Below, piece by piece: positions 25,626 through 35,490 of a stretch of 64,000 nucleotides of DNA. The notes under the pieces were generated by a model. The model was given only the letters and a program-made list of their open reading frames with translations, did not search any database and was not told the DNA's origin. Each line of letters opens with the position of its first letter. Position 1 is the stretch's first letter. The DNA is from Xanthomarina spongicola (GTDB taxonomy: Bacteria; Bacteroidota; Bacteroidia; Flavobacteriales; Flavobacteriaceae), in assembly GCF_003148645.1 (NCBI RefSeq), contig NZ_QGGP01000001.1, forward strand, positions 248,001-312,000, read 5' to 3'. The translations under genes were made by a program, and so were the position numbers.

Positions 25626-26364
25626 TTTTTAAGTTGTGTATTTGTTATTGTAAAGGTACAAAATGTAGTTAGATAGCTCTACTTTTTTTATACCTTTAGT
25701 AAATAAGATTATCTAATTGTTAATAGCTTCATCTTATAAAACCCATAACCTGTTAATAACTGTTTATAATTATTTAAAACTAAAATATTGTTTATTCAAT
25801 AAATTTTTCAATCAAAAATAGAGATGAAATAACCTAAATATAACTCTGTTATTTTTAGATAAGTTTTCAGACAAAATTTTAAGTTTATAAACAGTAATTT
25901 ATTTAATAGTTATGAATATTTACTATTAAAAACCACTTATTAACAACTATTAAAAACTGTTAATAGTTTTAATAAAAGGTATGGAAATGAAGCTCTTAAA
26001 TATAAAATAATTGTTAACTATATATTAATAGAACGTCAACAAGATAACATCAAAATAAAACTTAAAAAAGTTATACCTTTATTAACAAGCAATCATAATC
26101 ATTATTTATTTTTTAAATTTTAAAAGAAAAAATATGATTGTATATATAAATGTGGATAACTAGTTTTTAAAGATTAAATATTAATTAATTATTAAATTTT
26201 TGAAGTTAAAAAAGTATTTAATATTAAAAACGTAGCTTTGCAGTATTCTTAATGAATTGATTTAAAAGAATTCATAGTAAATTAAACAGACTTCCTATAT
26301 TAAAACATTCGTCCGAATAGAGAAAATTCAGTTTCATTAAGATTAATAAATGATTACAAAATAA
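25626..26364. other. AT-rich non-coding block with DnaA-box cluster: candidate replication origin
   Basis: These 739 bp between divergent rpiB and rnr contain no credible gene. A perfect DnaA box (TTATCCACA, minus strand) lies at 26151-26159. Five further sites fit the relaxed pattern TTATNNACA: 25751-25759 and 25761-25769 (minus), and 25885-25893, 25937-25945 and 26079-26087 (plus). Long A/T runs flank them, notably at 26160-26230. rnpA is about 4 kb left; mnmG and parS sites are 13-20 kb right. dnaA itself is not in the window. Function as oriC is an inference. Confidence 0.5.
26233..26240 (+). promoter_or_regulatory. Promoter -7 element (TAGCTTTG) for rnr
   Basis: Exact TAnnTTTG match at the right edge of the AT-rich block. 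It implies a 5' leader of about 118 nt before the rnr ATG. Confidence 0.55.
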
Positions 26365-28602
26365 ATGACAAAAAAGAAAAAAAGGAAACCTTCACATAAC
26401 CAGATTTCCAACCTTACAAATACCATTCTAAGTATTTTAAAAAAAGATAGAAACCAATCCTTCAACTATAAACAAATTGCTGCTAAACTTGGTGTAAACG
26501 ACGCAAGTAGTCGCAATCAAATTATTAAAAAACTTCAACAACTTAAAGCAAAACAAGAAATTGAAGAAGTAGAACGGGGTAAATTTAAAGCCATTGTTAA
26601 TACCGAATATCACACAGGAATTCTGGATATGGCTTCAAAAGGTACTGGATATATTATTAGCGACGATTTTGAAGATGATATTTATATATCTTCAAATAAT
26701 ATGAACAAAGCGCTTCATGGAGATCAAGTCGAGTTTTATGCTTACAAACGCTTAAAACGTGGTAGACGTGAAGGCGAAATTACAAATATTATCAAGCGTG
26801 CTAAAAGCGAGTATGTTGGTGTAATTCAATTCAGTAAAAATAATAATTTCGCTTTTGTAGTTGTTGATTCAAATAAAATGTACAAAGATATTTTTGTACC
26901 AATTAATAAAATTAACAAAGCTGAAGATGGAGATAAAGTTCTAGTTTCTTTAGACGATTGGCCTGAAAATTCCGATTCACCAAATGGTCGTATTTTAAAA
27001 GTTTTAGGAAAACCTGGAGAGCATAATACAGAAATCCATTCTATTTTAGCCGAATATGGTTTGCCTTACGAGTTTCCTCACGAAGTAGAAGATTATGCAA
27101 ACAAATTAGATACCTCAATTACAAAAGAAGAAATAGCAAAACGTCGCGATATGCGAGATGTTTTGACTTTTACAATAGATCCTAAAGATGCTAAAGATTT
27201 TGACGATGCCTTATCGTTTCAAATCATGGATAATGGCTTATTTGAAATAGGAATTCATATTGCAGATGTCTCACATTATGTGCAACCAGATACGGTTTTA
27301 GACGATGAAGCTTACGAGAGAGCTACTTCAGTTTATTTAGTAGATCGTGTGGTACCAATGCTTCCAGAAGTATTATCTAACAATGCATGTTCTTTAAGAC
27401 CACTTGAAGAAAAATACACCTTTTCTGCTGTTTTTCAAATGAATGATAAAGGCGAAGTTAAAAATGAATGGTTTGGAAGAACCGTTACCTATAGTGATGC
27501 CAGATTTGCTTACGAAGAAGCGCAAGCTATTATAGAAAATAATCCAAATCTCACATCGAGCGCAATCGAGATGTCTCAAATAAATAGAACAATTCCAGCT
27601 GAAGTTTCTCTTACAGGAAAAGAATATCAAACCACACCAGAAATTGCACAAGCTACTCTTAAGTTAGACGAATTAGCAAAAATCATGCGAAGAAAACGTA
27701 TGAATTCTGGAGCTATTTCTTTCGATAAAGTAGAGGTGAAATTCAATTTAGACGCACAAGCTAATCCAGTTGGTGTTTTCTTTAAAACAAGTAAAGATGC
27801 TAATAAATTAATTGAAGAATTTATGTTATTAGCTAATAGAAAAGTGGCTGAATTTATAGGAAAACAATCTCCTAAAAAAACCTTTATTTATCGCGTTCAC
27901 GACGAACCAGACGATAGTAAATTAGCAGCATTACAAAATGTTGTAAGTCGTTTTGGATATAAATTAAACTTTAAAGATAGAAAGAGTATTGCTTCATCTT
28001 TAAACAATTTATTAAGTGAAGTAAATGGTAAAAAAGAACAGAATTTAGTTGATACGTTAACTATTAGAACTATGAGTAAAGCTGAATATACAACTAAGAA
28101 TATTGGGCATTATGGTTTAGCTTTCGATTATTACAGTCACTTTACCTCTCCAATTAGAAGATATCCAGATGTTATGGCACATCGTTTGTTACAACATTAT
28201 CTAGATGGTCAAAAATCGGCTAACGAAGAAGTTTACGAAGATAAATGTAACCATTCCAGTAATATGGAAAATCTAGCTACAAAAGCAGAAAGAGATTCTA
28301 TTAAATACATGCAAATTAGATTTATGCAAGATCATAAAGATGAAGAATTTGTAGGTGTTATTTCAGGTGTTACCGATTGGGGAATTTATGTTGAAATTAT
28401 TGAGAATAAATGCGAAGGTATGGTTAGTGTTCGAGACATGAAAGACGATCATTATGTATTTGATGATGACCATTATGCTTTAATAGGAAAAAATTCTAAA
28501 ACCATGTATCAACTTGGCGACGAAGTAATTGTAAAAGTGAAAGATACAGACTTAGTTAAAAAGCATTTAGACTTTACCTTAATTGGTAAAAACGAAGATT
28601 AA
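26365..28602 (+). CDS. rnr: Ribonuclease R (3'-5' exoribonuclease)
   Basis: RNase R degrades structured RNA processively. The 745-residue protein shows an N-terminal winged-helix region (about 1-80, NYKQIAAKLGV), cold-shock-type domains (about 80-225), the RNB catalytic domain with the acidic cluster TIDPKDAKDFDDALSF near residue 270, and a C-terminal S1 domain (EFVGVISGVTDWGIYVEI). A lysine-rich N-terminus is usual. It is transcribed away from the candidate origin. Confidence 0.96.
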   Translation: MTKKKKRKPSHNQISNLTNTILSILKKDRNQSFNYKQIAAKLGVNDASSRNQIIKKLQQLKAKQEIEEVERGKFKAIVNTEYHTGILDMASKGTGYIISDDFEDDIYISSNNMNKALHGDQVEFYAYKRLKRGRREGEITNIIKRAKSEYVGVIQFSKNNNFAFVVVDSNKMYKDIFVPINKINKAEDGDKVLVSLDDWPENSDSPNGRILKVLGKPGEHNTEIHSILAEYGLPYEFPHEVEDYANKLDTSITKEEIAKRRDMRDVLTFTIDPKDAKDFDDALSFQIMDNGLFEIGIHIADVSHYVQPDTVLDDEAYERATSVYLVDRVVPMLPEVLSNNACSLRPLEEKYTFSAVFQMNDKGEVKNEWFGRTVTYSDARFAYEEAQAIIENNPNLTSSAIEMSQINRTIPAEVSLTGKEYQTTPEIAQATLKLDELAKIMRRKRMNSGAISFDKVEVKFNLDAQANPVGVFFKTSKDANKLIEEFMLLANRKVAEFIGKQSPKKTFIYRVHDEPDDSKLAALQNVVSRFGYKLNFKDRKSIASSLNNLLSEVNGKKEQNLVDTLTIRTMSKAEYTTKNIGHYGLAFDYYSHFTSPIRRYPDVMAHRLLQHYLDGQKSANEEVYEDKCNHSSNMENLATKAERDSIKYMQIRFMQDHKDEEFVGVISGVTDWGIYVEIIENKCEGMVSVRDMKDDHYVFDDDHYALIGKNSKTMYQLGDEVIVKVKDTDLVKKHLDFTLIGKNED

Positions 28603-28630
28603 ATATTACCTTTATAAAAAATTAATCCAC

Positions 28631-29305
28631 ATGAAAAATATAGTAACAATTGCATTAATATTAGTATCAACTGTATTTTTTGCACAAAGTCCAATTACTA
28701 CAACAGTAGGTAAATTTAAAGAACTTAAAGTTTACGATTTAATAGATGTTAATTTAGTACCATCAAACGAAGACAAAATTATTATTTCTGGTAAAAACAC
28801 AGATAAAGTGGTTTTTGTTAATAAAAATGGTGTTTTAAAAATAAAGATGAGTATTGATGCACTTTATAATGGAGATGATACAACAGTTACTTTACATTAT
28901 ACTGGAGTAGATATTTTAGATGTTAACGAAGGAGCGTCTATTTCTTCTAATGATACAATTAAACAATTCGAAATAAATTTAAATGCTCAAGAAGGTGGAA
29001 CTATTGAGGTTAGTTTAGATGTATCATATACTAATGTTAAATCCATATCAGGAGGGAATATAAAAGCTTCTGGAGTTTCAAAAAACCAGAATATATCTAT
29101 AAAAACTGGTGGTGTTTATAATGGTAAAGAACTTAAAACGGAAACAACAGATGTTACTGTTACAGCTGCTGGCGAAGCACGTATACATGCAAGTGGTTTA
29201 GTAACTGCTAAAGTAACAGCTGGTGGTAATGTGTATATTTATGGAAACCCTAAATCTGTAGATGAAAGTAAAGTTATGGGAGGAAATATAAAACGTATGG
29301 ATTAA
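28631..29305 (+). CDS. Exported GIN-domain (DUF2807) protein
   Basis: From the ATG at 28631 the protein has a signal peptide (MKNIVTIALILVSTVFFAQS). The longer open frame back to 28583 would overlap rnr and hide the signal. The rest is a repetitive right-handed beta structure typical of the 'head GIN' family: FKELKVYDLIDVNLVPSNED, then repeated short turns such as GGNIKASG and GGNVYIYG. Function is unknown; members are secreted or envelope proteins in Bacteroidota. Confidence 0.82.
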   Translation: MKNIVTIALILVSTVFFAQSPITTTVGKFKELKVYDLIDVNLVPSNEDKIIISGKNTDKVVFVNKNGVLKIKMSIDALYNGDDTTVTLHYTGVDILDVNEGASISSNDTIKQFEINLNAQEGGTIEVSLDVSYTNVKSISGGNIKASGVSKNQNISIKTGGVYNGKELKTETTDVTVTAAGEARIHASGLVTAKVTAGGNVYIYGNPKSVDESKVMGGNIKRMD

Positions 29306-29321
29306 ATCCATAGAGATTTCC

Positions 29322-29329
29322 TAAATTTG
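29322..29329 (+). promoter_or_regulatory. Promoter -7 element (TAAATTTG) for the LysE-family gene
   Basis: Exact TAnnTTTG match 16 bp upstream of the start codon. Confidence 0.55.
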
Positions 29330-29345
29330 TGTAAACACCATATGT

Positions 29346-30029
29346 ATGCAAGATGCTATTCTTAAAGCAATTCCCTTCGGTATACTATTATCGTTCACTA
29401 TTGGACCTGTTTTTTTTGTGCTATTAGAAACTAGTGCAACAAAAGGTTTAAAAAGTGCTTTAATATTCGATTTTGGTGTTATTATAGCAGACATATTCTT
29501 TATAGTTGTTGCATTTTATAGTACTACTAAACTTTTAGATAAAATAAAAGACGACCCAAATTTTCTTATTTTTGGAGGTGTTCTACTAGCTGTGTATGGG
29601 TTTATTTCTTTTATAAAAACCTCAAAATCTTTTCGAGATATTGTTAGAGAATATCATACTGTCGAAATAAAAAAGAAATTTGGAAAACTATTTATTAAAG
29701 GATTTCTACTTAATTTTATTAACGTTGGTGTGCTTTTAGGCTGGCTAGGTTTTATAGTTATAGGTAATTCTTTAACAGAAACTAATCAAGAACTTTGGGT
29801 ATTTCTAGGAACCATATTAGCAGTTTATTTTTTAGTAGATTTACTTAAAATTATAGCTGCAAAAACCCTTAAAAGCAAATTAACTCCTAGACGTATTTTT
29901 AAAACTAAAAAAATAGTCTCATTAGTTATTTTAGGATTTGGTATTTTATTACTAGTACAAGGATTTTTTCCTGAAGAGAAAGAACTAATTAAAGATAAGC
30001 TAGAACAAATTAATCCTATTAAAAAGTAA
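29346..30029 (+). CDS. LysE-family amino acid exporter
   Basis: A 227-residue integral membrane protein with about six helices. The N-terminus has the LysE signature (AIPFGILLSFTIGPVFFVLLETSATKG, given here only as its start and end: AIPFG and ETSATKG). The loop region LDKIKDDPNF and FIKTSKSFRD precedes the second helix set. LysE/RhtB proteins export basic amino acids, homoserine lactones or other small metabolites; the substrate here is unknown. Two ATGs overlap (29342 and 29346); only the second is in frame. Confidence 0.85.
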   Translation: MQDAILKAIPFGILLSFTIGPVFFVLLETSATKGLKSALIFDFGVIIADIFFIVVAFYSTTKLLDKIKDDPNFLIFGGVLLAVYGFISFIKTSKSFRDIVREYHTVEIKKKFGKLFIKGFLLNFINVGVLLGWLGFIVIGNSLTETNQELWVFLGTILAVYFLVDLLKIIAAKTLKSKLTPRRIFKTKKIVSLVILGFGILLLVQGFFPEEKELIKDKLEQINPIKK

Positions 30030-30073
30030 ATAGTATTATCATACATTAGTTAAGCTTTTATTTACTTTATAAA

Positions 30074-30424
30074 ATGCCAAAAGTCCAATATCATATTTAT
30101 GTTGTAGAACTATCTAAACGTGTTTTTACAGAAAACCGAAAATTTAGAGAAGCCAATCCGCAATTTAATGGTGTTTTAGAATGTTTATATGTTGGCATTA
30201 CAAGTAAAACACCAAAAGAAAGATTTGAACAACATAAAACTGGATATAGAAACAAAAAAGGATACAAACTTTCCTCGAATATTGTTGAAAAATATGGTTC
30301 CTATTTAAGACCAAGCCTCTACAATCACATAGATCCAATGAGCTCCAGAGCAGAAGCCCTTAAAATGGAAGAACAATTAGCTTTAGAATTAAGAAGACAA
30401 CGTTACGCTGTTTGGTACAACTGA
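30074..30424 (+). CDS. GIY-YIG-like small protein
   Basis: A 116-residue protein with a divergent GIY-YIG pattern: HIYVVEL near the N-terminus, then CLYVGITSKTPKERFEQHK, with a conserved arginine and histidine following as in GIY-YIG nucleases. The two strand motifs are separated by about 30 residues, longer than in standard members. EALKMEEQLALELRRQ near the C-terminus could supply the acidic residue. Nuclease activity is unproven. A hairpin at 30449-30479 can terminate transcription. Confidence 0.6.
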   Translation: MPKVQYHIYVVELSKRVFTENRKFREANPQFNGVLECLYVGITSKTPKERFEQHKTGYRNKKGYKLSSNIVEKYGSYLRPSLYNHIDPMSSRAEALKMEEQLALELRRQRYAVWYN

Positions 30425-30448
30425 TTTATCTTAAAAACTTATAATAAA

Positions 30449-30479
30449 AAACCTTTAAGTTTATCTTGAAGGTTTTTTT
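30449..30479. terminator. Terminator after the GIY-YIG-like gene, also outermost hairpin of the tRNA-Cys array
   Basis: AAAACCTT and AAGGTTTT arms, with A and T runs on opposite flanks, make it functional in both directions. Confidence 0.7.
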
Positions 30480-30525
30480 GGTGTCGATTTTAAATATTAT
30501 TAAACGCTATAGCTGGTGTATAAAC
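30479..30525 (-). pseudogene. Decayed tRNA-Cys 3' part, copy 1 (most distal)
   Basis: Retains GGTGTCG (acceptor 3' strand on the minus strand) and CTATAGCTGGTGT (variable region and anticodon-stem 3' side), separated by 20 AT-rich bp where the T-arm should be. No D-arm or 5' acceptor strand is recognisable. Confidence 0.7.
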
Positions 30526-30554
30526 TTCAATTAATTTTTTTAAAAATTAGCATA

Positions 30555-30588
30555 AAAAAAAGAGCTACTGTTAAGTAACTCTTTCTTG
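30555..30588 (-). terminator. Terminator hairpin in tRNA-Cys array (unit 2)
   Basis: AAAGAG-CTAC / GTAA-CTCTTT type stem with a long A run on its left flank, which is a U-tract for minus-strand transcripts. This unit has a different stem sequence from the other hairpins. Confidence 0.6.
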
Positions 30589-30635
30589 AGGTGTCGAGTG
30601 AAAAATATTTTACACGCTTTAGATGGTGTATTAAC
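30589..30635 (-). pseudogene. Decayed tRNA-Cys 3' part, copy 2
   Basis: AGGTGTCG and CTTTAGATGGTGT are kept exactly or nearly so. The 20-bp segment between can fold into a hairpin (GTG-a-AAAAT / ATTTT-a-CAC) in place of the T-arm. Confidence 0.75.
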
Positions 30636-30663
30636 TTTAAATAAATTTTTATAAAAATTAGAT

Positions 30664-30699
30664 ATAAAAAAACCTCCAACTTAATTTGAAGGTTTCTTG
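30664..30699 (-). terminator. Terminator hairpin in tRNA-Cys array (unit 3)
   Basis: AAACCTcCAACTT / AATTTGAAGGTTT type stem with a long A run to the left, which is a U-tract for minus-strand transcripts. Confidence 0.65.
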
Positions 30700-30747
30700 A
30701 GGTGTCGTTTTAATAAACATTCTTACAAGCTGTAGATGGTGTGCAAA
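30700..30747 (-). pseudogene. Decayed tRNA-Cys 3' part, copy 3 (proximal)
   Basis: AGGTGTCG and CTGTAGATGGTGT match the intact gene exactly. The 22 bp between have lost the T-arm sequence. Confidence 0.75.
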
Positions 30748-30780
30748 TTTTAATTAATTTTTCTTAAAAATTTAAAATAA

Positions 30781-30812
30781 AAAAAACCTCCAAACAATGT
30801 TTAAAGGTTTTT
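30781..30812 (-). terminator. Terminator directly after tRNA-Cys
   Basis: On the minus strand the hairpin AACCTTTAAAC / GTTTGGAGGTT is followed by a run of eight T, starting just after the tRNA 3' end. Confidence 0.7.
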
Positions 30813-30813
30813 G

Positions 30814-30884
30814 AGGTGTCGAGCGGATTCGAACCGCTGTAGATGGTGTTGCAGACCACTGCCTAGCCACTCGGCCACGACACC
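30814..30884 (-). tRNA. tRNA-Cys (anticodon GCA)
   Basis: A 71-nt cloverleaf: acceptor GGTGTCG/CGACACC, discriminator U73 as expected for tRNA-Cys, anticodon stem GTGGT/ACCAT with loop CTGCAAC (anticodon at 30850-30852 on the plus strand), and T-arm AGCGG-TTCGAAT-CCGCT. The CCA end is not encoded (CAA follows). It is the only tRNA gene I find in the window. Confidence 0.95.
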
Positions 30885-30934
30885 TAATAAGACAGCAAAT
30901 GTAAAAAAAATAAAGTTTTTACACTATTCAGAAC

Positions 30935-31297
30935 TTACTTTTTACGCTTTTCTGTCATTTTTATTGTAACCATTTCAACATCACCACCAATAGGAGGGTT
31001 TAGTTTACTAACTTTAACAGTGGCTTTGGTAATATGTCCATCTTCAATAAATATTCTTCCTAAAATACGCTTAGCAACTGTTTCAAGTAGATAAGAAGGA
31101 ATTTGCATTTCTTCTCTTACAATTTTATTTAAAAAAACATAATCTACTGTATCACTTAAGCTATCAGATTTTGCTGAAGTTTGTAAATTTGCTTTTACTT
31201 CTAAATCTACGCGATAATCACTACCAATTGCTGTTTCCTCTTTTAAACAGCCATGATGTGCAAAAATGCGTATATTTTCAACTTTTATTATTCCCAT
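30935..31297 (-). CDS. folB: Dihydroneopterin aldolase
   Basis: FolB cleaves dihydroneopterin to 6-hydroxymethyl-dihydropterin in folate synthesis. The 120-residue protein has the family N-terminus (VENIRIFAHHGCLKEE), the central LSDTVDYVFLNKIV, the catalytic-region segment LLETVAKRI, and the C-terminal VKVSKLNPPIGG. Size is normal. A possible TATTTTTG promoter element (31302-31309, minus) lies only 5 bp from the ATG, which would give an almost leaderless mRNA. Confidence 0.95.
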   Translation of the reverse strand: MGIIKVENIRIFAHHGCLKEETAIGSDYRVDLEVKANLQTSAKSDSLSDTVDYVFLNKIVREEMQIPSYLLETVAKRILGRIFIEDGHITKATVKVSKLNPPIGGDVEMVTIKMTEKRKK

Positions 31298-31365
31298 ATC
31301 ACAAAAATACTATTCAGAACGTCACTTCGAAATAAATTCTAAAAGAAATTAATATATAGAAGTTA

Positions 31366-31575
31366 TTAATTTGTAAAAAAGTCAAAAATATTAGTTATGC
31401 TGCTTGTTTTTGCTTTAAAAAATTCTGTATAAGTGCATTTTGTACAGGTTACAGAAGTAAATTTTTTGTTTTGTATGTTAAAAAGTTTTGTAAAAAGACC
31501 TCCTGTTGCTTGCATTTGATCCATTTCGTAAGTACGATTATGGCATTTTGGACACTCGTAATTTCTATGTTGCAT
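31366..31575 (-). CDS. Small zinc-ribbon protein
   Basis: A 69-residue protein with two CxxC pairs (CPKCHN near residue 8 and CTKCTY near residue 44), the spacing of a zinc ribbon. Between them is a basic and hydrophobic linker, GGLFTKLFNIQNKKF. Similar short ribbon proteins are widespread in bacteria; the function is unknown, with nucleic acid or protein binding possible. It is upstream of folB on the same strand with a 68-bp gap. Confidence 0.75.
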   Translation of the reverse strand: MQHRNYECPKCHNRTYEMDQMQATGGLFTKLFNIQNKKFTSVTCTKCTYTEFFKAKTSSITNIFDFFTN

Positions 31576-31638
31576 GATTTAAGTTTTAATTATAGGTATG
31601 AAAAACCATTCAGATGTTACAATTAGTCTAAAATTACC

Positions 31639-31646
31639 TAATTTTG
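31639..31646 (+). promoter_or_regulatory. Promoter -7 element (TAATTTTG) for glnS
   Basis: Exact TAnnTTTG match 28 bp before the glnS ATG. Confidence 0.6.
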
Positions 31647-31674
31647 TGCTTCATATTTCGAATAGAGAATATTT

Positions 31675-33684
31675 ATGTCTGAAGAATCAAAATCACTCAA
31701 TTTTATTGAGCATATTATAGAAGAAGATTTAGCTAATGGCTTAAAAAAAGAAGCCTTACGTTTTCGTTTTCCACCAGAACCAAATGGGTATTTACACATT
31801 GGTCACACGAAAGCTATTGGTATTAGTTTTGGTTTAGGTGAAAAATATAACGCTCCTGTAAACCTTCGTTTCGACGATACCAATCCAGCAAAAGAAGAGC
31901 AGGAATATGTAGATGCTATTAAAGAAGATATTTCTTGGTTAGGCTATAAATGGGCTAATGAGCTGTATTCTTCAGATTATTTTCAGCAGTTATACGATTG
32001 GGCAGTTCTGTTAATCAAAGAAGGTAAAGCCTATGTAGATTCGCAATCTAGTGAAGCTATGGCTGAACAAAAAGGAACACCTACACAACCAGGAATTGAT
32101 GGTCCATATAGAAACCGAAGTATTGAAGAAAATTTAGATTTATTTCAACGTATGAAGGATGGCGAATTCAATGAAGGGACTCACGTGCTTCGTGCAAAAA
32201 TAGACATGCAACATCCAAACATGTTGATGCGTGATCCTTTGATGTATAGAATTTTAAAGAAAGCGCATCATAGAACTGGAACCGATTGGTGTATTTATCC
32301 TATGTACGACTGGACACATGGCGAAAGCGATTATATAGAACAGATTTCTCATTCTCTTTGTTCGCTTGAATTTAAGCCTCACAGAGAGCTTTATGACTGG
32401 TTCAAGGACCAAGTATATAAATATCAACCAGAAGCGCTTCCAATGCTTCCAAAACAACGTGAGTTTGCACGTTTAAACTTAAGTTATACCATTATGAGTA
32501 AACGTAAGTTGCTTAAATTGGTAGAGGAGAAGATTGTATCAGGTTGGGACGATCCTAGAATGCCTACTATTTCAGGACTTCGTCGTCGAGGTTATACGCC
32601 AAATTCCATTAGAAAATTTGTAGAAACCGTAGGTGTTGCAAAGCGTGATAATGTGATAGATGTAGCATTATTAGAATTTTGTATTCGCGAAGATTTAAAC
32701 AAAACAGCTCCAAGAGTGATGGCTGTTTTAGATCCAGTTAAGGTAGTAATCACCAATTATCCTGAAAACAAAGTAGAATGGCTGGAAGCTGAAAATAATC
32801 AAGAAGATGAATCTGCTGGATTTAGAAAAGTGCCTTTTTCTCGTGAAATTTATATTGAAAAAGACGACTTTAAGGAACAAGCTGGCAATAAATATTTTAG
32901 ACTAACTCTAGGAAAACAAGTGCGTTTAAAAAATGCATATATCATTAAAGGCGAAAGCGTTGTTAAAGATAATCAAGGACATATTACAGAAATTCATTGT
33001 ACATATACTGAAGATACTTCCATAAAAGTAAAAGGTACTTTGCATTGGGTCTCTATTTCTCATGCTATAAAAGCTGAAGTTAGAGAGTATGATCGATTGT
33101 TTTTAGACGAAGCTCCAGATGCACATCCAGACAAAGATTTTATGGACTTTATAAATCCTGAATCCTTAAAAATAGTTGAGGCTTATGTAGAACCTAGTTT
33201 AGCAGATGCCAAAGTAGGAGACAGGTTCCAATTCCAACGTTTGGGTTATTTTAATGTAGATAATGATACGACATCAGAAAAACTTATTTTCAATAAAACA
33301 GTTGGGTTAAAAGATTCTTGGGCAAAGCAACAACCAGCCCAAAATAAGAATCAAAACCAACAGCAACCAAAACAAAATATTCCACAGAGAAAAGCTATTG
33401 ATGTTATTCAGCAATTAGGAAAAAAATACACCAATCTACCTGAAGCAAAACAGCAAAAAGTAAAAGCTGAAATATTAGAACTTGCTAATAAAGTTAGTTA
33501 CGAAGAATTAGAGCCTTTGTTTAATACAGCCGTTAAAAAGGTTGGAACACGTATTGCTGCTATGTTAGCTTTAAGTGTTCTAATTAAAAATGGGCAAGAG
33601 AAAAACTCTGCTGTTGTTGAGTTTATTGAGAAAGCTTTAGACGATAAAAATGAGCTTTTAGTAGCTGAAGCTAAAGCGATTTAA
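31675..33684 (+). CDS. glnS: Glutaminyl-tRNA synthetase with C-terminal extension
   Basis: This class I synthetase charges tRNA-Gln directly. Signature HIGH is at residues 41-44 (PPEPNGYLHIGH) and the KMSKS-type loop is TIMSKRK near residue 274. The anticodon-binding beta domains run to about residue 560. A Gln/Asn-rich linker (around 550-575) then leads to about 95 extra helical residues (KAIDVIQQLGKKYTNLPEAK to the end). Some GlnRS proteins carry a YqeY-like tail; this one may be a divergent version. At 669 residues it is more than 100 longer than the E. coli enzyme. Confidence 0.95.
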   Translation: MSEESKSLNFIEHIIEEDLANGLKKEALRFRFPPEPNGYLHIGHTKAIGISFGLGEKYNAPVNLRFDDTNPAKEEQEYVDAIKEDISWLGYKWANELYSSDYFQQLYDWAVLLIKEGKAYVDSQSSEAMAEQKGTPTQPGIDGPYRNRSIEENLDLFQRMKDGEFNEGTHVLRAKIDMQHPNMLMRDPLMYRILKKAHHRTGTDWCIYPMYDWTHGESDYIEQISHSLCSLEFKPHRELYDWFKDQVYKYQPEALPMLPKQREFARLNLSYTIMSKRKLLKLVEEKIVSGWDDPRMPTISGLRRRGYTPNSIRKFVETVGVAKRDNVIDVALLEFCIREDLNKTAPRVMAVLDPVKVVITNYPENKVEWLEAENNQEDESAGFRKVPFSREIYIEKDDFKEQAGNKYFRLTLGKQVRLKNAYIIKGESVVKDNQGHITEIHCTYTEDTSIKVKGTLHWVSISHAIKAEVREYDRLFLDEAPDAHPDKDFMDFINPESLKIVEAYVEPSLADAKVGDRFQFQRLGYFNVDNDTTSEKLIFNKTVGLKDSWAKQQPAQNKNQNQQQPKQNIPQRKAIDVIQQLGKKYTNLPEAKQQKVKAEILELANKVSYEELEPLFNTAVKKVGTRIAAMLALSVLIKNGQEKNSAVVEFIEKALDDKNELLVAEAKAI

Positions 33685-33705
33685 AAGTAAAATATAAAAC
33701 AAATT

Positions 33706-33739
33706 AAAGCCTTGAAGATATTGATTTTGAGGCTTTTTT
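33706..33739 (+). terminator. Terminator after glnS
   Basis: AAAGCCT (33706-33712) and AGGCTTT (33730-33736) arms with a 17-nt loop, then a T run. Confidence 0.7.
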
Positions 33740-33784
33740 GTTTATTTTAAGTATCTTTAGCAAACTAACTAACAATCTCAAATT

Positions 33785-34267
33785 ATGGAAATTAATTTTT
33801 TAGCAATTATTGCTGCTGCAATTTCAGCTTTAGTTGTTGGGTTTATTTGGTATAACCCAAAAGTGTTTGGAAACGCATGGATGCAAGCTGCAGGCATGAG
33901 TGAAGAAAAAATTAAAGGTGGAAATATGGCTAAAATTTTTGGTTTAGCTTTATTTTTTGCAATTCTTTTAGCATTCTCGCTACAATTTTTAACTATTCAT
34001 CAAACTGGTGCTTTAGGAATGATTGGAGGAGATCCAGCTACAGCTCTTCCATCTTATAACGCTTTTATGGCTGATTATGGTACTGCTTTTAGAACTTTTA
34101 AACATGGAGCGTTACATGGAACAATTGCAGGTTTATTTATTGCTCTACCAATAATTGGAACTAACGCACTATTTGAGCGTAAAAGCGCAAAATACATTTT
34201 TATTAATTCAGGCTATTGGATTGTTACACTCGCAATTATGGGTGGCATTGTTTGTGGCTGGGTCTAA
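33785..34267 (+). CDS. DUF1761-family membrane protein
   Basis: A 160-residue protein with about four hydrophobic segments (residues ~5-22, ~50-70, ~110-128, ~138-158). The N-terminal pattern IAAAISALVVGFIWYNPKVF followed by WMQAAGMSEEKIK is characteristic of DUF1761. Function is unknown. Monocistronic, with terminators on both sides. Confidence 0.8.
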   Translation: MEINFLAIIAAAISALVVGFIWYNPKVFGNAWMQAAGMSEEKIKGGNMAKIFGLALFFAILLAFSLQFLTIHQTGALGMIGGDPATALPSYNAFMADYGTAFRTFKHGALHGTIAGLFIALPIIGTNALFERKSAKYIFINSGYWIVTLAIMGGIVCGWV

Positions 34268-34290
34268 TTTTGTAATGATTTAACTTATTT

Positions 34291-34322
34291 AAAGACTGAA
34301 AGATTTTATTTCAGTCTTTTTC
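34291..34322 (+). terminator. Terminator after the DUF1761 gene
   Basis: A perfect 11-bp stem AAAGACTGAAA / TTTCAGTCTTT with a 7-nt loop and trailing T residues. It ends 11 bp before the TTG start of the next gene. Confidence 0.85.
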
Positions 34323-34332
34323 ATTTTTCACT

Positions 34333-35490
34333 TTGATAAACTTTAAAATCTTTAATTCTTCTAAGCAATTACCTCTTGAATGGGATGGTTTTGTTATAGA
34401 AGATATTTTTCTACAAACGGCTTATTTTAAATCTTTAGAACAGGCCTCTCCAAAAAATATATCTATGAATTATGTTGGAGTTTTTAAAGACGAAACTCTT
34501 GTTGGTATTGCTATTATTCAGCGTGTGGAATTATATTTAAAAGATATGTTTAGAAATGAAACAGATTCTTTTTTTGTTGAAAATTTTAAAAACGGGGTTT
34601 CAAAACTCTTAAAAGGAAACTTGCTTGTTGCTGGTAATTTGACTCATACTGGACAACATGGTTTGTATTTTAATATTGAAAGTATTTCACAAAAAGAGTT
34701 TTTATTTCAAATCTATCAAGCAATCCTTCAACTTAAAAAAGAGATAAAAATTAAAGATAAAAAGCGAATTCGAATGATAATGTTGAAAGACTTTTTTTTC
34801 GATGATGCTGTACATCAAGAATTTGATTTATTTAGTGAGAATCAAATTCATAAGGTGACTGTTCAGCCCAACATGATTATGGAAGTTAAAACCCATTGGA
34901 ACCATTTTGATGATTATTTAGCCGATTTAAATAAAAAGTATCGAGACAGATTTAAATCAGCCAGAAAAAAAGCTAAAAATATTGAAAAGAGAGAATTAGA
35001 TTTAGAAGACATCAAAGAAAATTCCCCATTGCTTCACAAGCTTTATAAAAACGTTTCAGATAATGCAAAAATTAATACGTTTATACTACCAGAGAATCAT
35101 TTTTACAGCTATAAAAAACATCTGGATGAGAATTTTAAAGTTTTTGCTTACTATTTAGATAATAAGCTGATTGGCTTTTACAGTTTAATTTTAAATAAGA
35201 CAGAATTAGAAACCTATTTTTTAGGTTACCACAAAGAACATCAATATACAAATCAGTTATATCTTAACATGCTTTACGATATGGCTTCTTTTGGTATTGA
35301 AAACAATTTTTCTTCAATTGTTTATGCAAGAACAGCTATGGCGATTAAAAGTTCGGTTGGCGCACATCCTAAAAAAATGTTTATTTATATGAAACATACT
35401 AATTGGGTTATGAATACGCTATTAAAATATATTTTTAAACTAATGAACCCAAAACAAAACTGGGAAGAACGACACCCATTTAAATTTTAA
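34333..35490 (+). CDS. GNAT/FemAB-like acyltransferase, uncharacterised
   Basis: The 385-residue protein has a layout recalling FemAB/peptidoglycan-bridge-type double GNAT proteins: an N-terminal part with QTAYFKSLEQASP, a basic helix pair DLNKKYRDRFKSARKKAKN near residues 197-215, and a C-terminal acetyltransferase-like part (LIGFYSLILNKTELETYFLGY). The start is a TTG just after the preceding terminator; the next ATG (residue 44) would remove conserved-looking sequence. The substrate is unknown. A weak hairpin (35501-35524) follows. Confidence 0.65.
   Translation: MINFKIFNSSKQLPLEWDGFVIEDIFLQTAYFKSLEQASPKNISMNYVGVFKDETLVGIAIIQRVELYLKDMFRNETDSFFVENFKNGVSKLLKGNLLVAGNLTHTGQHGLYFNIESISQKEFLFQIYQAILQLKKEIKIKDKKRIRMIMLKDFFFDDAVHQEFDLFSENQIHKVTVQPNMIMEVKTHWNHFDDYLADLNKKYRDRFKSARKKAKNIEKRELDLEDIKENSPLLHKLYKNVSDNAKINTFILPENHFYSYKKHLDENFKVFAYYLDNKLIGFYSLILNKTELETYFLGYHKEHQYTNQLYLNMLYDMASFGIENNFSSIVYARTAMAIKSSVGAHPKKMFIYMKHTNWVMNTLLKYIFKLMNPKQNWEERHPFKF

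Follow-up and report, generated by a model that had tools for sequence, protein, structure and literature searches.

A tandem array of partial tRNA-Cys copies in Xanthomarina spongicola and its possible kinship with tRNA-linked repeats of Flavobacteriaceae

Tandem repeats that carry the 3' end of a tRNA are known behind the tRNA at the tyrT locus of E. coli and Salmonella as the rtT repeats. PMC2658671 has a table entry for a 175 bp VNTR at rtT RNA. Another related system is SegB of phages T4 and T6, a free-standing GIY-YIG homing endonuclease encoded close to tRNA genes. In phage T6, as passages of PMC13096335 report, SegB cuts within tRNA genes with a preference for the motif RAWTSGAAC (23 of 83 sites), and both its nuclease activity and homologous recombination are required for its tRNA segment to be amplified in tandem; the terms "palindrom", "direct repeat" and "T-loop" are absent from the main text of that paper.

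The window analysed here is a stretch of 64,000 nucleotides from Xanthomarina spongicola (NZ_QGGP01000001.1, positions 248,001 to 312,000), taken from a draft genome of 3.16 Mb (G000). Its sole tRNA is a tRNA-Cys(gca), and a search with this gene as query gave a single tRNA-Cys match in the genome. The minus-strand order is folB (upstream of the array), tRNA-Cys from 30884 to 30813, three partial copies of it and a last terminator, beyond which lie a GIY-YIG ORF and a LysE-type gene, both convergent with the array. The features are as follows.

30813..30884, minus strand: intact tRNA-Cys(gca) (ARAGORN; genome search with the gene as query)
30701..30812, minus strand: unit 1, 112 nt, composed of terminator 1, AT-rich spacer and pseudo 3' half (alignment, shuffles); left flank 30729-30742, T-arm 30708-30728, acceptor strand 30701-30707
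30778..30812, minus strand: terminator 1, immediately 3' of tRNA-Cys (-12.7 kcal/mol, z -3.5; also in the strict scan)
30590..30700, minus strand: unit 2, 111 nt, composed of terminator 2, AT-rich spacer and pseudo 3' half (alignment, shuffles, fold); left flank 30616-30629, T-arm 30597-30615, acceptor strand 30590-30596
30480..30589, minus strand: unit 3, 110 nt, composed of terminator 3, AT-rich spacer and pseudo 3' half (alignment, shuffles, fold); left flank 30506-30519, T-arm 30487-30505, acceptor strand 30480-30486
30440..30479, minus strand: terminator 4, end of the array (fold; alignment to G007)
30074..30424, plus strand: GIY-YIG ORF (PF01541, 23.6 bits, cut-off 22.6), convergent with the array

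An earlier note on this DNA had described tRNA-Cys followed by three decayed copies in a tandem array of about 111 bp, with the block GGTGTCG at 30480, 30590 and 30701 and, in the intact tRNA, at 30815. All four positions were confirmed, the fourth block being the intact gene itself, and TRF reported a period of 111 with 3.0 copies (score 312). The note had also proposed that the units be aligned pairwise against chance; identities were 75, 71 and 76%, while 200 dinucleotide-preserving shuffles per pair reached at most 60% (z 10.1, 8.1 and 10.4).

Each unit runs from a terminator through the AT-rich spacer and a 14-base left flank to a T-arm substitute of 19-21 nt and the 7-base acceptor strand. 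The statement that only 3' parts of the tRNA are recognisable holds true, the units carrying the 3' half with its T-arm replaced. Of the 14 bases directly 3' of the anticodon, units 1, 2 and 3 retain 14, 13 and 12, and the acceptor 3' strand retains 7/7 bases in every unit. The T-arm substitute, longer than the 14 nt of tRNA-Cys, has a sequence unlike the tRNA's. Identity between units is 88% (37/42) and 100% (21/21) in the two tRNA flanks; outside them it is 68% (42/62) in the T-arm and 71% (163/230) in the remainder. A hairpin test on the T-arms gave p values of 0.46, 0.034 and 0.66 for units 1 to 3, and of 0.28 and 0.008 for the genus relatives G001 and G006. In the window the T-arms are thus expanded, AT-rich and without a clear palindrome. 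A partial copy on the same strand as the neighbouring tRNA and a replaced T-loop are both found in the window array. With units of 110-112 nt there is no GIY-YIG ORF between tRNA and copy, and no nuclease gene lies within the array, the nearest GIY-YIG ORF being convergent and outside.

The four U-tailed hairpins have folding energies of -12.7, -13.0, -14.5 and -10.0 kcal/mol (z -3.5 to -6.0), which bears out the claim that every unit has a terminator hairpin with a U-tract on the minus strand; a stricter terminator scan requiring at least 3 G-C pairs returned the first of the four and one unrelated site. Terminator 4 with its flank aligns with the terminator and flank immediately behind tRNA-Cys of G007, a site without the array (93 of 118 columns identical). 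Because the last terminator of the window genome aligns with the one right behind tRNA-Cys in G007, the array must have been inserted, or have expanded locally, between tRNA-Cys and the old terminator. In the Rfam scan tRNA was the only family to reach its cut-off; matches to PsrR1 (29615-29695) and Phe_leader (30664-30721) fell below theirs and were discarded.

The ORF at 30074-30424 is probably not part of the array but a neighbour outside it. It is a GIY-YIG ORF of another type, and by eye it also stands behind tRNA-Cys in G001, G003, G006 and G007, with a truncated remnant in G004. Being convergent, weak in Pfam score and present in the array-less G007, it was rejected as the array's own nuclease.

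Relatives had been proposed as a place to look for the same array, and it was found in part of the genus and in other genera of the family. The comparison within the genus covered eight genomes, including the window's own, with units counted by eye. Three units stand behind tRNA-Cys in the window genome and one clear unit in G001; G006 has one clear unit plus decayed ones, the flanks being gone from the later units. G002 carries one unit whose T-arm is partly retained, G005 has a relic near a contig end, and in G003, G004 and G007 no copy rose above shuffles (p 0.51, 0.52 and 0.40). The array is unstable in the genus, with fewer or decayed units in relatives and three of eight genomes without a detectable copy, which speaks against a conserved RNA function.

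The comparison with rtT made in the earlier note is apt as anatomy: both consist of tandem repeats that follow a tRNA and contain its 3' end, and in both the copy number varies. Unlike rtT, the window array has the T-loop replaced and a terminator in each unit, the tRNA is that for Cys, and kindred copies stand behind many other tRNAs.

A tRNA-Cys gene was found in 58 of 60 relatives. The sequence downstream of it was compared in 50 of these 58, and besides the genus, G014 and G020 exceeded all 200 shuffles. We also searched 397 family genomes with an open-insert pattern (CAGCGGTTC, 12-42 free bases, YGAYRCCTC). It matched in 12 genomes; six matches are arrays behind tRNA-Cys (G014, G421, G020, G273, G423 and G378), and the remaining six may be chance matches. 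Together with G307, arrays or single copies behind tRNA-Cys thus occur in at least seven genomes of other genera, so the remark that no equivalent was known for tRNA-Cys in Bacteroidota no longer stands. G273 has five near-identical units of 116-117 bp and then a decayed sixth, and G014 four units of ~148 bp and then a decayed fifth. In all six arrays the insert is the palindrome YCCCGA-N-TCGGGR, placed right after GGTTC where it replaces GAATC, and no GIY-YIG ORF was present among the tRNA-Cys arrays examined. In G020 the array occurs and a Phe-type GIY-YIG match is absent. The AT-rich spacers of the window-genus arrays resemble those of the g14 arrays (p ≤0.008 in all 9 comparisons), although the tRNA-like parts follow the tRNA of their own host. 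This shared spacer is the best direct tie between the AT-rich version of the window and the palindromic version.

Copies with a palindrome in the T-loop recur behind many tRNAs of the family. GGTTC followed by the palindrome was found in 31 of 397 Flavobacteriaceae genomes, from 26 of 237 genera, and a reversed-pattern control gave 0 among the matches listed. The retrieved loci contain 77 distinct matches. A tRNA on the same strand lies no more than 1 kb upstream of 67 of them, and for 56 of these 67 what follows the palindrome is the 3' end of that very tRNA, compared with 0.4% of permuted pairs in which flanks were swapped between tRNA types; ten matches are without such a tRNA, and eleven have a tRNA but no 3'-end match. 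The 56 copies belong to Phe (17), Leu (9), Cys (7), Pro (5), Val (5), Ala (5), Gly (4), Tyr (3) and Thr (1). The T-loop is substituted at one same point behind nine tRNA types, and both flanks remain tRNA-like. Clusters of odd tRNAs, perhaps phage-like, were seen at L143/L188, L145/L189 and L124/L187, with a whole tRNA-like gene that bears the palindrome in the T-loop.

REP-type dispersed palindromes resemble the family in that YCCCGA-N-TCGGGR also occurs away from tRNAs; the family palindrome, unlike theirs, stands at a fixed point of a tRNA copy. The motif was counted at 13 to 29 places per genome in G020, G273, G423, G014, G378 and G421, and at 1 to 3 places in each of three window-genus genomes.

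The window genome holds other tRNA copies. When 34 of its tRNAs were tested, six beat all 100 shuffles. Two of these matches, for Cys and Gly(tcc), are copies; the remaining four lie, by position, inside neighbouring tRNA genes. tRNA-Gly(tcc) at C3:279067 has one partial 3' copy ~80 nt behind it, with a duplicated terminator and a REP-like stretch that replaces the T-loop. tRNA-Ala(ggc) (C1:132600-134700) is preceded by a GIY-YIG ORF (Pfam 2e-14) and by its own 5' copy, which has a hairpin in the D-loop. A GIY-YIG remnant was also noted immediately 5' of tRNA-Arg (C3:226700-228800).

Small GIY-YIG genes are associated with such copies at tRNA-Phe and at some other tRNAs. Behind tRNA-Phe of G378 there are units of ~370 bp, each composed of a terminator, a 94-codon GIY-YIG ORF and a tRNA-Phe 3' copy with a broken T-loop. 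In this genome the palindrome at tRNA-Cys, where no ORF lies, is the reverse complement of the one at tRNA-Phe, where an ORF is present. Relatives of the G378 protein were found in 51 of 118 genomes, and 23 of the best 30 loci have a same-strand tRNA; a scan of viral_contigs with this nuclease revealed no relative. On reading these loci, we found that the hairpin replaces the T-loop in partial tRNA-Phe copies, the anticodon arm in copies of Arg (L220, L235, L199), Val (L195, L198, L205) and Pro (L215, L216), the anticodon loop in a Met copy (L210), the variable loop in Asn copies (L196, L207) and the D-loop region of a 5' Arg copy (L206, L219). At L220, near 165-600, tRNA-Pro and tRNA-Arg are duplicated as a pair, followed by tandem units of GIY-YIG size with anticodon-arm hairpins.

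Seven Phe-type proteins, used as queries against the named genomes, led to 46 loci, from Flavobacterium, Maribacter, Croceitalea, Psychroflexus, Winogradskyella, Christiangramia, Leeuwenhoekiella, Moheibacter and others. The Phe-type gene is also present in a strain of F. johnsoniae (L279). In 42 of them tRNA-Phe stands just upstream of the ~94-residue GIY-YIG gene, and three of the other four are near a contig end. A strict pattern revealed T-loop-broken copies in 37 of the 46 loci. All 40 distinct copies have a 16-nt insert with an outer pair of either C-G (19 copies) or T-A (21 copies), and one inner pair is broken once. Protein, not palindrome, served to choose these loci, so their selection does not by itself link the nuclease to the broken T-loop. 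The broader idea that small GIY-YIG genes are all tRNA-bound failed, as in general a same-strand tRNA or tmRNA was found at only 5/29 and 4/24 loci. In G006 a GIY-YIG gene (L242) lies directly behind tmRNA.

Like SegB, for which cleavage of tRNA genes at a T-loop-like motif and tandem amplification are published, the family has a small GIY-YIG nuclease beside tRNAs. SegB, however, belongs to phages, whereas the family resides in bacterial chromosomes and has partial tRNA copies in which a hairpin replaces an arm, and the window array is nuclease-less. The reverse complement of the SegB motif, GTTCSAWTY, fits T-loops such as GTTCGAATC of tRNA-Cys, and the fitting stretch is broken mid-way in the copies. 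The motif fits 39 of the 56 host tRNAs of palindromic copies (6 misses were not parseable) against 15 of 31 tRNAs of the window genome, and so failed as a sharp test for singling out the affected tRNAs; a match is weak evidence because the motif hardly differs from the consensus of T-loops in general. The open-access literature, represented mostly by titles and the openings of abstracts, yielded no account of tRNA copies of this kind, and the wider family of hairpin-bearing tRNA copies is apparently undescribed so far.

The reading that we put forward, with conviction and doubt in equal parts, is that the array is a tandem scar of breakage and repair at tRNA-Cys, a nuclease-less member of a tRNA-linked repeat family of Flavobacteriaceae. 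A duplication would have placed the 3' half of tRNA-Cys, together with its terminator, behind the intact gene; the T-loop in this copy would have been destroyed, and recombination would then have multiplied the copy. In full members of the family, where a small GIY-YIG gene lies between the intact tRNA and a hairpin-bearing partial copy, the nuclease would break the tRNA gene at the T-loop, anticodon arm, variable loop or D-loop. Repair would retain one intact gene because the cell needs the tRNA; the leftover copy could not be cut any more, and the segment would expand in tandem. We infer that the nuclease made the copies and that the hairpin protects them, and also that the AT-rich T-arms of the window belong in the same series. 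More tentatively, and with doubt outweighing belief, these may be new minimal mobile elements that home into bacterial tRNA genes: a GIY-YIG nuclease of ~80-125 residues would cut one arm, the part carried by the element would rebuild the gene, and the displaced hairpin copy would be immune, the nuclease-less tandem arrays such as that of tRNA-Cys being derivatives.

A rival without any nuclease is simple tandem duplication behind a tRNA, as in rtT, through slippage during replication or through unequal crossing-over; the T-arms would then have decayed or been hit by dispersed palindromes by chance. It fits with the lack of an ORF in the tRNA-Cys arrays examined, with the different copy numbers of close relatives, with AT-rich T-arms that have no significant palindrome in three of five units tested, and with the dispersal of similar palindromes, which number 13 to 29 per genome in six array genomes. 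We nevertheless consider it rather unlikely, since the T-loop is replaced at the same point behind nine tRNA types and chance decay would not spare the flanks, which in the window are 88 and 100% identical between units against 68% in the T-arm and 71% in the rest. More improbable still is a functional RNA array, made either of tandem fail-safe terminators or of small RNAs that imitate the tRNA-Cys 3' half and so pair with the 5' half. The four stable U-tailed hairpins agree with it, the retained flanks are strands that pair in the tRNA, and the whole array folds at z -7.1, a figure that includes the tRNA and terminators; yet G003, G004 and G007 have no detectable copy, the later G006 units have lost their flanks, and no non-tRNA Rfam family reached its cut-off. 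A conserved small RNA or terminator function was rejected as the leading reading on account of copies absent or decayed in the genus. Of the roles named in the earlier note, fail-safe termination is possible, but nothing needs it, the array being missing or decayed in close relatives, and the same distribution lends no support to a source of useful small RNA.

The note's further suggestion, scars of repeated integration, comes closest to the evidence as far as repeated events at the tRNA 3' end are meant; what is unlikely is a tyrosine integrase as the agent. tRNA 3' ends are common attachment sites, and elements with such an integrase could have integrated there and been lost repeatedly. However, the full unit of ~111 bp is repeated with terminator and spacer, beyond an attachment core, and no integrase gene was noted among the ORFs of at least 60 aa at 26000-35000, by eye and in four Pfam scans. 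We regard these scars as highly improbable and rejected them because the repeat unit is too long and too complete. The likely agent is recombination, perhaps GIY-YIG-started, rather than a tyrosine integrase.

If breakage and repair is the right explanation, a small selfish nuclease would have marked many tRNA genes of Flavobacteriaceae, a large family, each time breaking an essential gene yet leaving it intact. This would be a testable cellular counterpart to the phage SegB system, would account for unexplained repeats behind tRNAs, and would offer one-gene, one-site models for the origin of tandem arrays.
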